Shown in pieces: positions 8,751-15,300 of a stretch of 16,574 nucleotides of DNA (positions are counted from its first letter, which is position 1; every line of letters starts with the position of its first letter). Position numbers and translations under genes: made by a program. Origin of the DNA: Bacteroidota bacterium (GTDB lineage Bacteria; Spirochaetota; Spirochaetia; JABMQR01); the NCBI GenBank assembly GCA_013202335.1, contig JABMQR010000231.1, positions 1 to 16,574 of the forward strand, given 5' to 3'. The notes under the pieces are model-generated. The model made no database searches. It saw nothing but the letters and a program-made list of their open reading frames with translations, and was not told the origin of the DNA.

Positions 8751-9535
8751 CTATAGCTCTCTTTTTGAGAGGGAAATGTTTTTGCCAGCACATCCTGGTG
8801 GTACTGATTTAAGGCTTCACCAATCAGCTTTGCCCCTTCCAGATATCGGCGTACAAATTTCGGGTCTTTACCGGTGCCCATGCCCAGCATATCCTGCAGT
8901 ACCAGGACTTGCCCGTCGACTCCGTTTCCTGCACCTATCCCAATAATAGGTATAGTGAGGCTCTCTGCTATCTTTTTCCCCAGTGTTTCAGGGACACATT
9001 CCAGAACAATGGCAAAACAGCCGGCTTTTTCAAGCTGCAGGGCTTCTTCCAGAAGGATCATCCGTGACTGATCCTCTTTTCCCTGTACCCGGTATCCGCC
9101 AAACTGGTTCACCGATTGGGGTGTCAGGCCTAAATGCCCCATCACCGGTACGCCGGAATCTACAATATGTGTTATGATTTCAAGGTTTCCCCTGGCTCCC
9201 TCAAGTTTCACTGCGTTAGCTCCCGCCTGCATGAGCTGCCGGACATTTTCCAATACGATGTCAAGGCTGACACGGTTTGAGAGAAAGGGCATGTCTCCAA
9301 TTATGAATGCATTAGGTGCTCCACGGCGAACGGCTGCGGTGTGTGATGCCATCATCTCAGTTGTGGCCTGTATGGTTGATTCGTATCCATGCATTACCAT
9401 GGATGCACTGTCACCTACGAGTATGCAGTCCAACTCGGTTCCTGCAATTATTGCAGCACTCCAGCTGTCATAGCAGGTGATCATAGAGATTGGTTTGCCT
9501 TGTTGTTTTCTGGTGATAAATTCTGGTGCGGTCAT
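8747..9535 (-). CDS. panB: Ketopantoate hydroxymethyltransferase PanB
   Basis: Transfers a hydroxymethyl group from 5,10-methylenetetrahydrofolate to 2-oxoisovalerate, giving ketopantoate. The 262-residue TIM-barrel protein has the Mg-binding GDSASMVMHG at 41-50, LTPQSVNQFGGYRVQGK at 137-153, likely catalytic E179 in LECVP and the GIGAG...DGQVLVLQDMLG block at 199-218. Length is typical. It is the first gene of the pan-coa operon, preceded by a leader of about 150 nt and a near-consensus promoter. AGG and AGGT elements lie within 15 nt of the ATG. The reading frame stays open upstream to a stop near the -10 box but offers no ATG, GTG or TTG, so 9535 is the best start. PanE, the next enzyme, is not encoded here; IlvC could substitute. 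Confidence 0.95.
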   Translation of the reverse strand: MTAPEFITRKQQGKPISMITCYDSWSAAIIAGTELDCILVGDSASMVMHGYESTIQATTEMMASHTAAVRRGAPNAFIIGDMPFLSNRVSLDIVLENVRQLMQAGANAVKLEGARGNLEIITHIVDSGVPVMGHLGLTPQSVNQFGGYRVQGKEDQSRMILLEEALQLEKAGCFAIVLECVPETLGKKIAESLTIPIIGIGAGNGVDGQVLVLQDMLGMGTGKDPKFVRRYLEGAKLIGEALNQYHQDVLAKTFPSQKESYR

Positions 9536-9685
9536 GTGGTACCTGTCCTTTGGATCAAGTCCTGTGTGTATTGCGAAATCTTCACTGAAAGATTCAGATT
9601 CCTTAGTGGTCGGGGTGTTGGGAGTCTTTCGGACTTCCCTGGCATCTCCGCCGGGTATGTTTCTTTCTTGTATGGTTCTTTCGCT
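9536..9685 (-). promoter_or_regulatory. Long 5' leader of the pan-coa operon with stem-loops
   Basis: About 150 nt separate the predicted transcription start from the panB ATG. One hairpin pairs GGGAAGTC (9639-9632) with GACTCCC (9626-9620), with one bulged A and a CGAAA loop. A second, weaker one pairs AATCTT with AAGATT further downstream. No known riboswitch consensus is recognised. A leader this long with structure could hold post-initiation control, but it may simply be untranslated spacer. Confidence 0.35.
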
Positions 9686-9692
9686 TAGTTAG

Positions 9693-9722
9693 ATAATAGG
9701 CATGAGGAGACCTCGGTGTCAA
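9693..9722 (-). promoter_or_regulatory. Promoter of the panB-panC-coaC-coaB-coaX operon
   Basis: On the minus strand a perfect TTGACA (9722-9717) and TATTAT (9698-9693, five of six bases) are 18 nt apart. This is the best sigma-70-type promoter in the window and sits ahead of an uninterrupted five-gene operon. The stretch from 9723 to 9797 upstream of it holds no gene or element I can identify, apart from a former stop codon of the kinase gene at 9786-9788. Confidence 0.7.
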
Positions 9723-9797
9723 TAGTTATTGCAGAGTTCTGTTCGGTTTCGTGGGGGGAGGAATTCATTAAATCCCAGTACAGCTCTATCTTTCTAT

Positions 9798-9982
9798 TAA
9801 TACTTTTAAACTGACCGGAAGCCGGTGGGTTATCTAATTGATAAACCTATTTAAACAAAAGAATTATTCGAACAAAAAACTTTTTCGCATTTTTTAGTGA
9901 ATATTTCATTGCTAATTTCTTTCTACCCGTAGATTTCCAGCTGGTAGAATCCCACCGGCTTCCGGTCAGTTTATAATACTTT
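9798..9982. repeat. 9-bp target site duplication flanking the miniature element
   Basis: TAATACTTT occurs at 9798-9806 and again at 9974-9982, exactly abutting the outer ends of the 23-bp terminal inverted repeats. Directly flanking identical 9-mers are what DDE-type transposition leaves behind. The right copy lies within the last codons of the soluble kinase gene, the left copy in what was once its continuation. Confidence 0.85.
9807..9973. mobile_element. Miniature inverted-repeat transposable element (MITE), 167 bp
   Basis: The ends are perfect 23-bp inverted repeats (9807-9829 and 9951-9973, outer end TAAACTGACCGG). Each contains an inner small palindrome, ACCGG-AAG-CCGGT. The 121-bp interior is strongly A/T-rich and too short for a transposase. 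It holds small inverted repeats (TTATC...GATAA at 9830-9844; TTCTACC...GGTAGAA within about 9921-9948). Bordering 9-bp direct repeats show it arrived by transposition as a non-autonomous element. No transposase is in the window, so the parent IS family is unknown; several families make 9-bp duplications. The right end supplies the stop codon of the adjacent kinase gene. Confidence 0.85.
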
Positions 9983-12325
9983 ATTCAACGTTTCCCGAAG
10001 TTTGGTAAGTGTATACGGTTTTGCAGCAACACCTTTAAACCCATAGTCTGCATAGTTTGCCATTATAGGATCATCAGTATATCCGCTGGAGACTATAACT
10101 TTTGCGTTTGGATCAATTTCAAGAATGTTTTTTACTGCATCTTTCCCGCCTATTCCACCAGGAATAGTGAGATCCATAATTACCGCAGCAAAGGACTTCC
10201 CCTGTTCCATCATCTCACGGTATCTGGTTAGGGCCTGATGCCCATCCTCAACTGTCTCAACTGAGTACCCAATTCTTCCCAAAAGTAATGCTACAATATC
10301 CCGAACAACTTTTTCATCATCCATCACCAAAATGTTCAAGTTTTGCTCCGAATGCAAAATTTCTTTCTCAACATCCTTAGCCTTCAGTGATTGAAGAATA
10401 TTTACTGCTGGAAGGTAAAACGTAATGGTGGTTCCCTGATCAATTATCGAATCAATCTGTAAAAGCCCATTGTGTTTCTGAATTATTGAATAGACTACAG
10501 CTAACCCTAACCCATTCCCCGTCTGCTTAGTGGTAAAATAGGGATCAAACACCTGATTAATGTATTCTTCAGGGATGCCTGCCCCATCATCACGAACAGT
10601 TACTTTTATATATTCTCCCGGGCTAAGACCGGGCACTGTATCCTCAGACACCTTTAGATTTTCTAAATTGACAAAGAAATAGCCGCCTTCAGGCATTGCC
10701 TCCTTAGCATTAATGGCAAGATTCGAAAACACCTGTTCAAGCTGCCCTTTGTCAGCCATAGCTATCCATAAGTCATCATCCTGTTGAAATACGGGTTTTA
10801 CTTTGCTGCCTGCAAAATCAAATCGTACAATATCATGTACAAATTCAATAAGATGAACACTCTCTTTAATGGGGGTCCCTCCCTTGGAAAAGGTCAGCAA
10901 CTGTCCGGTAAGTCGTCGGGCCCGATCCATTGACTTCTCAGCATCCAAAATAAAATTCATACATGGGGCATTTTCCGGAAGAGAGAGTTTTGCCATTGCA
11001 ATATTCCCGAATATACCCATGAGAATATTGTTAAAATCATGAGCAATTCCACTTGCCAGGGTTCCGATGGATTCAAGTTTCTGCATTTTCCACAGCTCTT
11101 TTTCTATCTGTCGGCTGTCTGAGATATCCAGTAGGGATGCAACACTATTTTGTGTACCAGGGATCTTTTTTATCGTAAGGAAAACATCCTTAATTACACT
11201 ATTTTTATCAATAAACCTGAATTCCAGCTGATGAGATTCAGTACAAGAACACTCTTTCCCTCTGGGGTCCAGCAGCTTAAGGTCTCCTTTGCTCTCTTCC
11301 TTCACAAATTCAATCCATTTTTTCTTACCAATTATTTCATCCTGGGTATAGCCGGACAGCTTTAAAAACATTTCGTTTGCGGATATAATAGTATTATCAG
11401 CTTGATAGATTATTGTGGCTGCACCGGTATTTTCAAAAATAGCCTGGTAGTAATCTTTACTCTCACGAACACTTTGTTCTGCTAATTTGCGGGCAGTTAT
11501 ATCCGTGTACTGCTCAATTCTACCACCTGCATACAGTCCCGACTTTATCGGTTGGCTCCAGTAGCTGAACCAGCGCTCTTCACGATTTTCCGAAGATAAC
11601 ATATGACATTCAAATTCATCAATATAGGTATTGTCATTATATGCGGCCAAAAGTCTTTGCTTAAATCTTTCCGAATCCTCAAAATTATCTTTTAGTACTG
11701 ATGAGACAAGGTACCGATTATCTATCCCGATAACATATTCCTTCTTCAACCCAAAAAAATTCTCGGCTGCCTTGTTTATCCATTCATCCTGCATATCTTT
11801 ATTAAGGATAAATATTCCTACTGATGAGGTATCCAGCGCATCATTCATTAACGAACGGTATTTCTCTTCACTTTTCCAAAGCTCTTTTGTTCTCTCTTTA
11901 ATGATCTTTTCCAGATTTGTTTTTTCCGAACGAAGTGTATCCTCCCCCCTCTTTAGTCTCAGCATTACATTGATCTGGGCTACAAGTTCATTTGGTTCAA
12001 AGGGTTTGGACAGGAAAGCATCCGCACCAAAATTCAAACCCCTGATACGACTAGCCGTATCAGTCTTAATTGCTGTAAGCATTACAATCGGAATATGTTT
12101 TGTAATTTCATACTGTTTCAGAACCCTACAAACTTCATACCCATCCATTTCCGGCATGATAATATCAAGAAGTATGGTATCCGGAAACTCCGTCTTGGCC
12201 AGAGCTATTCCCTCTTGTCCAGACATAGCGGTGAAAACCTTACACCCGGGTAAATAGATTTTTAGCAGCGCTTCAATGGAAATCAGGTTATCCTGTTGAT
12301 CATCAATTACTAATAGTTTAGACAT
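9971..12325 (-). CDS. Soluble hybrid histidine kinase (REC-PAS-PAS-HisKA-HATPase-REC)
   Basis: A 784-residue kinase without membrane segments. Order: receiver at 1-122 (phospho-acceptor D54, K107), a coiled-coil linker at about 125-155, PAS domains at about 156-280 and 288-408, a HisKA domain with H429 in GIAHDFNN, an ATPase domain with N539 in the N-box, DDGAGIP (579-585) and GNGLGLA (603-609), and a C-terminal receiver at about 664-784 (D718, K769). The N-terminal receiver could accept phosphate from the kinase encoded just upstream, whose stop overlaps this ATG by 8 nt. AGGA lies about 7 nt before the ATG. The stop codon TAA comes from the inserted miniature element; without it the protein would end three residues later. 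The ligand of the PAS domains is unknown. Confidence 0.92.
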   Translation of the reverse strand: MSKLLVIDDQQDNLISIEALLKIYLPGCKVFTAMSGQEGIALAKTEFPDTILLDIIMPEMDGYEVCRVLKQYEITKHIPIVMLTAIKTDTASRIRGLNFGADAFLSKPFEPNELVAQINVMLRLKRGEDTLRSEKTNLEKIIKERTKELWKSEEKYRSLMNDALDTSSVGIFILNKDMQDEWINKAAENFFGLKKEYVIGIDNRYLVSSVLKDNFEDSERFKQRLLAAYNDNTYIDEFECHMLSSENREERWFSYWSQPIKSGLYAGGRIEQYTDITARKLAEQSVRESKDYYQAIFENTGAATIIYQADNTIISANEMFLKLSGYTQDEIIGKKKWIEFVKEESKGDLKLLDPRGKECSCTESHQLEFRFIDKNSVIKDVFLTIKKIPGTQNSVASLLDISDSRQIEKELWKMQKLESIGTLASGIAHDFNNILMGIFGNIAMAKLSLPENAPCMNFILDAEKSMDRARRLTGQLLTFSKGGTPIKESVHLIEFVHDIVRFDFAGSKVKPVFQQDDDLWIAMADKGQLEQVFSNLAINAKEAMPEGGYFFVNLENLKVSEDTVPGLSPGEYIKVTVRDDGAGIPEEYINQVFDPYFTTKQTGNGLGLAVVYSIIQKHNGLLQIDSIIDQGTTITFYLPAVNILQSLKAKDVEKEILHSEQNLNILVMDDEKVVRDIVALLLGRIGYSVETVEDGHQALTRYREMMEQGKSFAAVIMDLTIPGGIGGKDAVKNILEIDPNAKVIVSSGYTDDPIMANYADYGFKGVAAKPYTLTKLRETLNKVL

Positions 12326-15300
12326 CTGTTTTCCTGATTTTCAGCCACCTGTCCAACACTGTAAGGAGAAGTTCCTGATCTATGGGTTTTGTCACATAAT
12401 CATCAAATCCACCGGAAAGAAATCTCTCTTTATCTTTCCACATAGCATGGGCGGTTACAGCAACTACCGGGATGTTTTGGGTCTTTTTATCTTTTTTCAA
12501 TGCATTTACAACTTCCAATCCATCCATACGTGGAAGTGATGCATCAAGCAAAATAAGATCCGGCTGCTCTTTAAATGCGCAGGCGAGTCCTTGTTCTCCA
12601 TCGAAAGCTTCAAGTACCGTACAATAACACTGTATAATTGCCTTTATGGTTATCATGTTATCCATATTATCTTCTACAACAAGCACTCTGGGAAGTCCTG
12701 AAATATTTTTATCAGCAACTTCTTTCTTTATTGGATCAGGTGCGGCAGAAACTATTCTCTCTTTTGTCTTTTGCATATGTGTCTGTTTTTCAGAAAATTT
12801 CGGCTGATTCCCAAGCATCAACCTCACCCTAAAAAGCAAGCCGTCAATATCAACATCCCCTTTTTGGATGAGCTGCTGAATATTATTGCTGCTCAATTTT
12901 GACAAATCTTCTTTAGTCAAATCTTTTGCTGTTAATATCAATACCGGAATATTCTTTGTCTCTTCGGTACCCCGTATGCTTTCCAATACTTCAAATCCAT
13001 CAACATCAGGCATCATCAAATCGAGTATTATTCCGTCAGGTTTGTTATACTTCATATAATCCAAAGCCTGCTTCCCACCCGGGGCAATATCAACTATAAA
13101 GTTCTCCTTTACAAGAACTTTTTTTATTTGAATAACCGCTACCTCATTGTCCTCAACTATCAAAATACGGGGTTCTGTTTGCTGTTTTTTAGAATAAATC
13201 CTCTTTTCAGGCTGATGCAATTCAAACAAAATACGCTTTACTTCCTGCAGTAAATTTTTGGAGATAGACTCGTCTTTAGTTAATATTGATGAAGCTTTAC
13301 CTGCAATTCGTTCCCGTTCCTGTGCAGTTAAATCCTTTGCGGTAACAATAATAACCGGTAAGTTTTTCAATTCCGCTGTACTTCGCACTCTATCCAGTAC
13401 TTCAAACCCATTCATTTCCGGCATGAGTAAATCCAGTACCAGTACATCCGGAATATATTTCTGCAGTAATTTCAGGCACTCTTTTCCACTCTCTGCCATA
13501 ACAGTATGGATATTATATGAATTTATTATTTCTGCCAGCTGTTTGCGGTCTAACTCATCATTATCAACAATCATTACAGTAGCTGGATTCTGGTGCAGCT
13601 TATATATCTCTGTAATCAGTTGTTGTTTATTAACCGGTTTTTGTATATACCCAACTGCCCCCAGGGCAAATGCAATCTCCTTGTTATTAGATACGGATAC
13701 CATAATGACAGGAATATCTTGTGTCTCCTGCTTGCTCTTTAAAACCTGAAGCACTTCCCACCCATCAATTTCCGGCATAATTATATCTGAAACAATCGCA
13801 AAGGGTCGATAGATTTCAGCAAGATTCAAAGCCATTTTCCCGGATGCTGCCCGCAGCGTCTTATATCCCGCCTCTTCAAGATCCCGGGAAATTTCTTTAA
13901 GGTACTCCGGATCATCATCAACCACAAGTATGGTTTTTTGTTCGGGTTTGTATGCTATCGGTTTGAATGTCGGTACATTCGCTGTATCTACTTCTCCCTG
14001 CCATTCCATTGGGATCGTTATAGTGAATAGTGTTCCTTCCCCAAGTTCACTTACAACCTGTATATCTCCACTGAGATTTTTAATCAACTTATAGGCTATG
14101 GCCAATCCCAGCCCTGTTCCTTCGTATTGACGTGAAGAGGAACCGTCAGCCTGCCTGAACTCTTCAAATATATGAGGAAGTGCCTGCCTGGAGATTCCAA
14201 TTCCGGTATCTTTCACAACAATGGAAATTTTTTCCGATGTGAATGAAACTGCTACATCAACAAACCCCTTTTCAGTGAATTTAACGGCATTACTAATAAT
14301 ATTCTGCAGCACCTGATGCAGCTTCCCCTCATCCGTCACTACTTGCTGCAACCCTTCAGCAAAGTTCAGCCTGAATTCCAAACCCTTGTTCTGGACAATA
14401 GGAAAAAGACTATCTCTAATATTGTTGAGAAGGGTTTGCAGAGAACTGGTTGTTGGATGTAATTCAATCTTTCCTGCTTCGATTTTTGATAGATCAAGTA
14501 TGTCGTTAATAAGATACAAAAGATTTTTCCCGTTTCTTTCAACAATTTTCAGGTAGTTATTCTCTTCTTCAGATAGTTTATCTTCAGCCTGCATAATAAG
14601 TACGCGTGAAAGAGCCATAATTGAGTTCAATGGCGTACGTAATTCATGACTCATATTGGAAAGAAATTCACTCTTTAAACGGTTTGTCTCTTCACCCTGC
14701 TTTCTCTGCCTTTCCAGCTCAATATTCTGCTCCTGCAGCTCTTCTGATTGCTCCTGCAGCTCTTCAGTTTGCTCCTGCAGCTCTTCAGTTTGAGATTCCA
14801 GCTGCTGGTTGACAATTGCCATACGTTCAGCTAACGCTTTTGTCTTTTCATTTGCCAATAACCTGGAGTACGAAGAGTTTATATTTGTCCATGACAGCTG
14901 GAGGATGTCATGGCAATTATCACCGAATTTTTTAATGCTGATCAGAGAGATAAGGGCAACGACGGTTGTATCAACTACCACGGGAATAGTGATTATCTCT
15001 CTTGGCAGCATATCACCGGCAACTGTCCGGTAGGTGAACACGGTATCTTCCGGGATGTTTCGAAAATGTACAATCTCTCTCTTCTCCACAGCCTGCCAGA
15101 ATTCACCCTCCGGGTTCTCTGCACTAAACGGTTTAAGCAGCTCATCATTCACCCCCATAGAGAGAAAGTGTTCAAATTCATTACGCTGCTCATTTAAGAC
15201 ATAGAAGGTTCCCATATTCGCATTAGTCGTTTTCATCAACTCTTTGAGCAGGTTTTGAGAAAAAACTTGCTGAGTCGTGTAATCAACCATGGCGGCAGCA

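Follow-up and report, generated by a model that had tools for sequence, protein, structure and literature searches.

A probable MITE-type insertion at the 3' end of a hybrid histidine kinase gene in a little-sampled spirochaete order

Is a short non-coding segment with matching inverted ends, lying between a histidine kinase gene and panB, a mobile element that has inserted there, or a fixed structural feature that only looks like one? The segment occupies positions 9807-9973 of the window, that is, of the whole 16,574-bp stretch of DNA analysed here. It measures 167 bp and has perfect 23-bp terminal inverted repeats (TIRs) of sequence TAAACTGACCGGAAGCCGGTGGG. It is very probably a MITE-type, non-autonomous DNA transposon, presumably moved by a DDE-type transposase. 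The features on which this reading depends are as follows.

9798..9806, no strand: left target-site duplication, TAATACTTT, read from the sequence
9807..9829, plus strand: left TIR, TAAACTGACCGGAAGCCGGTGGG, an inverted match to the right TIR at 23/23 positions
9830..9950, no strand: non-coding core of 121 bp, 26% GC, with no Rfam family above its cut-off and at most 43 codons between stops
9951..9973, minus strand: right TIR, an inverted copy identical to the left TIR (23/23)
9971..12325, minus strand: response-regulator / PAS / hybrid histidine kinase gene, 784 aa, with its stop codon inside the element
9974..9982, no strand: right target-site duplication, TAATACTTT, read from the sequence; its minus strand encodes the kinase's terminal KVL

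The physical description given in the first-pass annotation, namely perfect 23-bp inverted repeats, 167 bp overall, identical flanking 9-mers and no coding capacity, holds on re-examination. The two arms agree at 23 of 23 positions (9807-9829 on the plus strand against 9951-9973 on the minus strand), and the direct repeat TAATACTTT, 9 bp long and perfect, abuts both ends of the element at 9798-9806 and 9974-9982. By simple arithmetic, with both ends of the element already fixed, a 9-bp match next to them would arise by chance with a probability of ~4^-9, or 4e-6. Across the 16,574-bp window, a scan for perfect arms of at least 12 bp with starts less than 400 bp apart returned the element's pair as the sole inverted repeat, and the 23-mer end, allowing up to three mismatches, occurred in none of 200 dinucleotide shuffles of the window. 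Base composition differs between the parts, with 61% GC in the TIRs and 26% in the core, compared with 43% in the window. Stops interrupt all six reading frames of the element (1-6 per frame), the longest stretch between them being 43 codons, and an Rfam search of the element found no family at gathering score. Plant microRNA hairpin models appeared only at permissive Rfam E-values, far below the cut-off, and are attributed to the long perfect stem. The element thus combines the features by which MITEs are recognised: TIRs, a flanking target-site duplication, and short length without coding capacity.

Other repeats occur elsewhere in the window. At 240-282, a small palindromic unit of 17 bp, TTAGAAGTCGGACTTCA, is repeated 2.5 times, and the repeat overlaps the gene for a sugar-binding protein (minus strand, 274-1368) at its 3' end. 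Positions 14728-14803 hold a 21-bp tandem repeat within a large hybrid kinase gene, where it encodes repeated EELQEQ units.

The right end of the element coincides with the end of the neighbouring kinase gene. The kinase ORF ends in KVL followed by TAA, and on the minus strand this TAA (9973-9971) forms the outermost triplet of the right TIR. In-silico removal of the element and one duplication gives a frame that reads ...LNKVLIER*, suggesting that the insertion displaced the kinase's last three codons. The C-termini of five homologues were read, three of which stop three residues past VL (P0002 VLQSE, P0003 VLAME and P0004 VLQSG); P0005 stops two residues past IL, and P0006 is longer. A related ORF in genome G001 ends in QVLQSE, also three residues past VL. 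The chance of a stop at exactly that codon is about 4%, again by arithmetic. Since the stop is supplied by the element, the kinase would lose only about three residues, and the insertion would be tolerated. On the other side of the element, a promoter-like TTGACA-18-TATTAT (11/12) lies at 9693-9722 on the minus strand, between the element and panB, with the element upstream of it. Promoter-like sites in the region are at shuffle level, with two found against a shuffle mean of 1.8.

Comparison with relatives provides a partial view of the site before insertion. Among GTDB genome contigs, the best PanB matches come from Spirochaetales RS_6_9 (86%; contig L002 of G001) and Spirochaetia BS150m-G37 (87%; contig L003 of G002), while the third-best reaches 66%. 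By sequence comparison, the window's host is placed as an uncultured member of the Spirochaetales; the collection includes four genomes for G001's family and likewise four for its order. The window, at 16,574 bp, is as long as the longest contig recorded for its own kinase protein and is probably a complete metagenomic contig. In G001, too, the kinase-related ORF sits upstream of the pantothenate genes, separated from them by two or more genes. Its match to the kinase is confined to the C-terminal part (63% over kinase residues 501-784), and the gene is a partial rather than a full ortholog. Within this stretch of G001 (L002 99-3944), a CheR domain is fused in front of the part that matches the kinase C-terminus. 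Between the ORF and panB there are genes for an FAD oxidoreductase and for a repressor of the peptidase-S24 type; none of these features occurs at this place in the window.

The 3' end of this related kinase gene in G001 carries no element. A check for an empty site in close relatives had been suggested, and in G001, the one relative in which it could be viewed, the view covers the gene side alone. The element is absent at the gene end, which would support insertion for the gene-side half of the site. The far flank does not contribute: G001 DNA past the kinase-related stop codon shows no alignment to the window flank, and the joined flanks and the occupied sequence score alike against L002 (137 vs 138), both matching only up to the gene end.

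Searches for further copies, a check that the first-pass annotation had suggested for the host and related genomes, gave no full-length match to the element in G001-G005, though G001 has three end-like sites. No contig of the genome-contig collection contains the end's exact 21-bp core. With up to three mismatches, the window's own end has three sites in G001 (2.8 Mb) and none in G002, G003 or G006. A degenerate consensus of the end, allowing T or G at position 11, matched three of 392 genomes sampled evenly across the phylum. G001 contributed three sites at two mismatches, and the 391 other genomes contributed two single sites (L093 and L094) at three mismatches each, neither with an inverted partner within ~1.5 kb. 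A reversed control pattern had 0 matches in G001. In a class sample searched with a 19-mer at one mismatch, G001 was the one matching genome of 394, with two sites.

All three G001 sites have TAAACTGACCTGAAGCCGGTGGGATTG-like letters in common. One of them (L092, at L128 4819-4869) is a 51-bp imperfect palindrome that carries both ends and has no visible target duplication, and the other two are single ends. One single end opens with the TAG stop codon of metA (homoserine O-succinyltransferase); at the junction of metA with its convergent gene in G002 and G003, where the neighbour was recognised by eye from its final residues, no such end sequence is found. Most simply, the three sites would be remnants of a related element, as decayed copies or as fragments.

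Looser searches returned mainly background. A shorter 18-mer at three mismatches matches in all six relatives examined, and matches at that level were set aside. In G001, three of nine 18-mer matches, at one or two mismatches, have agreeing inner letters; another at two mismatches sits in a coding ORF and was rejected. A sequence-only model of the ends (R1) is convincing only at the G001 sites, which are its training sequences and match by construction. Its matches in G003 (L172, E 0.002) and G006 (L177, E 0.19) are, by eye, apparently one homologous coding stretch, and a further G006 match (L173, E 0.03) and the remaining rows (E at least 0.3), mostly uninspected, were treated as background. 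Plasmid matches (one record) and phage matches (three records) are short pieces at E about 0.5, none of them full-length. In viral contigs, the degenerate 18-mer had 0 matches, and the single 18-mer match (L001) lies in unrelated GC-rich DNA with no inverted partner. A paired-end pattern picked out 20 stretches of viral contigs, of which 19 are taken as chance pairs, their repeat ending within two bases outward and at 9-11 inward; the twentieth (L198) is part of a coding stretch duplicated in inverted orientation, which differs in its letters from the element and is unrelated to it. This duplication (L198 6712-7027; 95 nt, 91%) is either a genuine rearrangement or an assembly artefact.

The ends had also been singled out for folding on themselves. 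The motif ACCGG-AAG-CCGGT is indeed present within each TIR, and the 23-mer alone folds at -9.1 kcal/mol; the whole element forms a stem of -70.4 kcal/mol (z -10.3). The fold is real, but its special status is not supported by comparison with G001, where at all three sites the first of the two G is replaced by T (ACCTG or ATCTG) and nothing compensates for it. Two of these three sites fold no better than shuffles, and the third (the 51-bp palindrome) forms a single long stem. There is no support for a functional hairpin within the individual ends.

Families of insertion sequences (IS) that make 9-bp duplications include IS10, IS903, IS256, IS1 and ISLre2, which resemble the element in duplication length. 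Transposase loci of three families were read in G001, G002, G003 and G006, the four genomes of the order, covering the one PF00872 (IS256-type) match, 12 of 14 PF01609 matches and all seven PF01797 (Y1) matches. Across these 20 loci, each reaching ~1.5 kb or less on either side of the match, nothing matches the end of the element with fewer than 7 mismatches in 23; the order's genomes are fragmentary or small, and none is the host itself. In G001, a transposase ~0.5 kb away from the 51-bp palindrome was rejected as a parent, its IS having unrelated ends of its own (GAGCCTGTCCCAAAAGCA). This IS (L128 2599-4435 in G001) is ~1.8 kb long, with ends like GAGCCTGTCCCAAAAGCA and a transposase split over two ORFs, and a short ORF beside it looks truncated by eye. 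The element would have been moved by a transposase encoded elsewhere, as the first-pass annotation proposed, presumably of the DDE type.

Other origins can be weighed against the same evidence. The small palindrome in each end and the mutual inversion of the ends recall a REPIN, a pair of inverted, foldable repetitive extragenic palindromes that a Y1 (RAYT) transposase mobilises without duplicating the target. Y1 transposase matches do occur in G001 (two) and G003 (five), with none in G002 or G006, and the G001 end-like singletons and the one short doublet sit outside predicted main genes, as this origin would allow. REPINs are not known to leave a target-site duplication, however, and here a perfect one of 9 bp flanks the element on each side. 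Nor does the palindrome persist at the three G001 sites, the end motif accompanies none of the seven Y1 loci (best, 7 mismatches of 23), and just three sites at up to three mismatches occur in the 2.8 Mb of G001. The two REP superfamilies carry a GTAG or CGTC tag (PMC3733652, in the part consulted), and neither tag is present in the 23-bp end. A REPIN origin is accordingly very improbable.

Slightly more improbable still is a fixed structural element that resembles a transposon only in appearance, such as a bidirectional terminator or an mRNA-stabilising stem-loop between genes. An intergenic position, a very stable stem (the -70.4 kcal/mol and z score given above) and the location of two of the three G001 end-like sites between convergent genes would fit such a role. 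The 9-bp duplication would not, and the 121-nt loop between the arms is unlike that of an intrinsic terminator; a terminator scan of 9400-10300 found its sole terminator-like site at 9638-9655, outside the element. Absence at the kinase gene end in G001, the one relative viewable there, and absence of the G001 metA site from both viewable relatives, G002 and G003, also speak against a fixed feature. MITEs commonly arise from an IS by internal deletion, and the segment could instead be the decayed remnant of one full-length IS that lost its transposase by deletion in place and was never mobile in its present form. The single full copy known is compatible with this, but perfect ends, a perfect duplication and a core without coding trace fit insertion as a 167-bp unit better, and we regard the decayed remnant as improbable.

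Among described elements, MITEAba12 of Acinetobacter offers the closest parallel in kind. As far as the consulted part of its description goes, it is a 113-bp AT-rich element without a known coding sequence, with a 9-bp target-site duplication and a preference for AT-rich targets, and one copy creates a stop at the 3' end of a gene, premature by 398 residues (PMC6382973). It has 16-bp imperfect TIRs, 90 copies and a proposed parent, ISAba12 (PMC6382973). The element described here shares with it short length, AT-richness, lack of coding capacity, short TIRs, a 9-bp duplication, an AT-rich target and the creation of a stop; the likeness is one of description. Unlike MITEAba12, it has perfect 23-bp TIRs and an unrelated host, and neither a parent nor a second full copy was found in the genomes searched. 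REP and REPIN sequences, as partly consulted, share with it an extragenic inverted pair of short palindromic units, from which it differs in having no GTAG or CGTC tag, a long perfect TIR and a perfect 9-bp duplication (PMC3733652). Searches of open-licence literature on spirochaete MITEs and insertion sequences gave no title on such an element in this lineage; one spirochaete title deals with IS605 stem-loops in Borrelia plasmids (PMC2775950). The element is ordinary in kind, a bacterial MITE that duplicates 9 bp and creates a stop being already in print (PMC6382973).

The proposal of a mobile insertion is supported, mainly by the perfect TIRs and target-site duplication, with secondary support from the G001 gene end, where the element is missing, and from the frame length of the joined flanks. 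Mobility, the class of transposase, the loss of three residues and the neutrality of the insertion are inferred. A DDE-type transposase encoded elsewhere would have recognised the 23-bp ends and taken the element from another site. The element would then have been joined to a staggered 9-bp cut in the AT-rich DNA where the kinase gene ends, and gap filling by host repair would have made the TAATACTTT duplication. In this sequence of events, the element's first triplet, TAA, would have become the kinase's new stop codon, at a cost of only about three C-terminal residues and with the insertion tolerated. Judged by its perfect ends and duplication, the insertion can reasonably be called fairly recent, an age that carries no date.

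The element might also be the first seen member of a transposon family restricted to an uncultured spirochaete order, with self-complementary ends and a parent transposase of a type new to such ends. We consider this unlikely; if true, each end of the family would open with a stop codon (TAAACTGA, stops in two of three frames), and its insertions at gene ends would cost the host only a few residues. Read as a MITE-type insertion, the element documents a recent-looking event in a little-sampled spirochaete order, with a distribution that is narrow in the collections searched. It provides an example of a MITE-type element that takes over a gene's stop codon, and leaves the general view of such elements unchanged.
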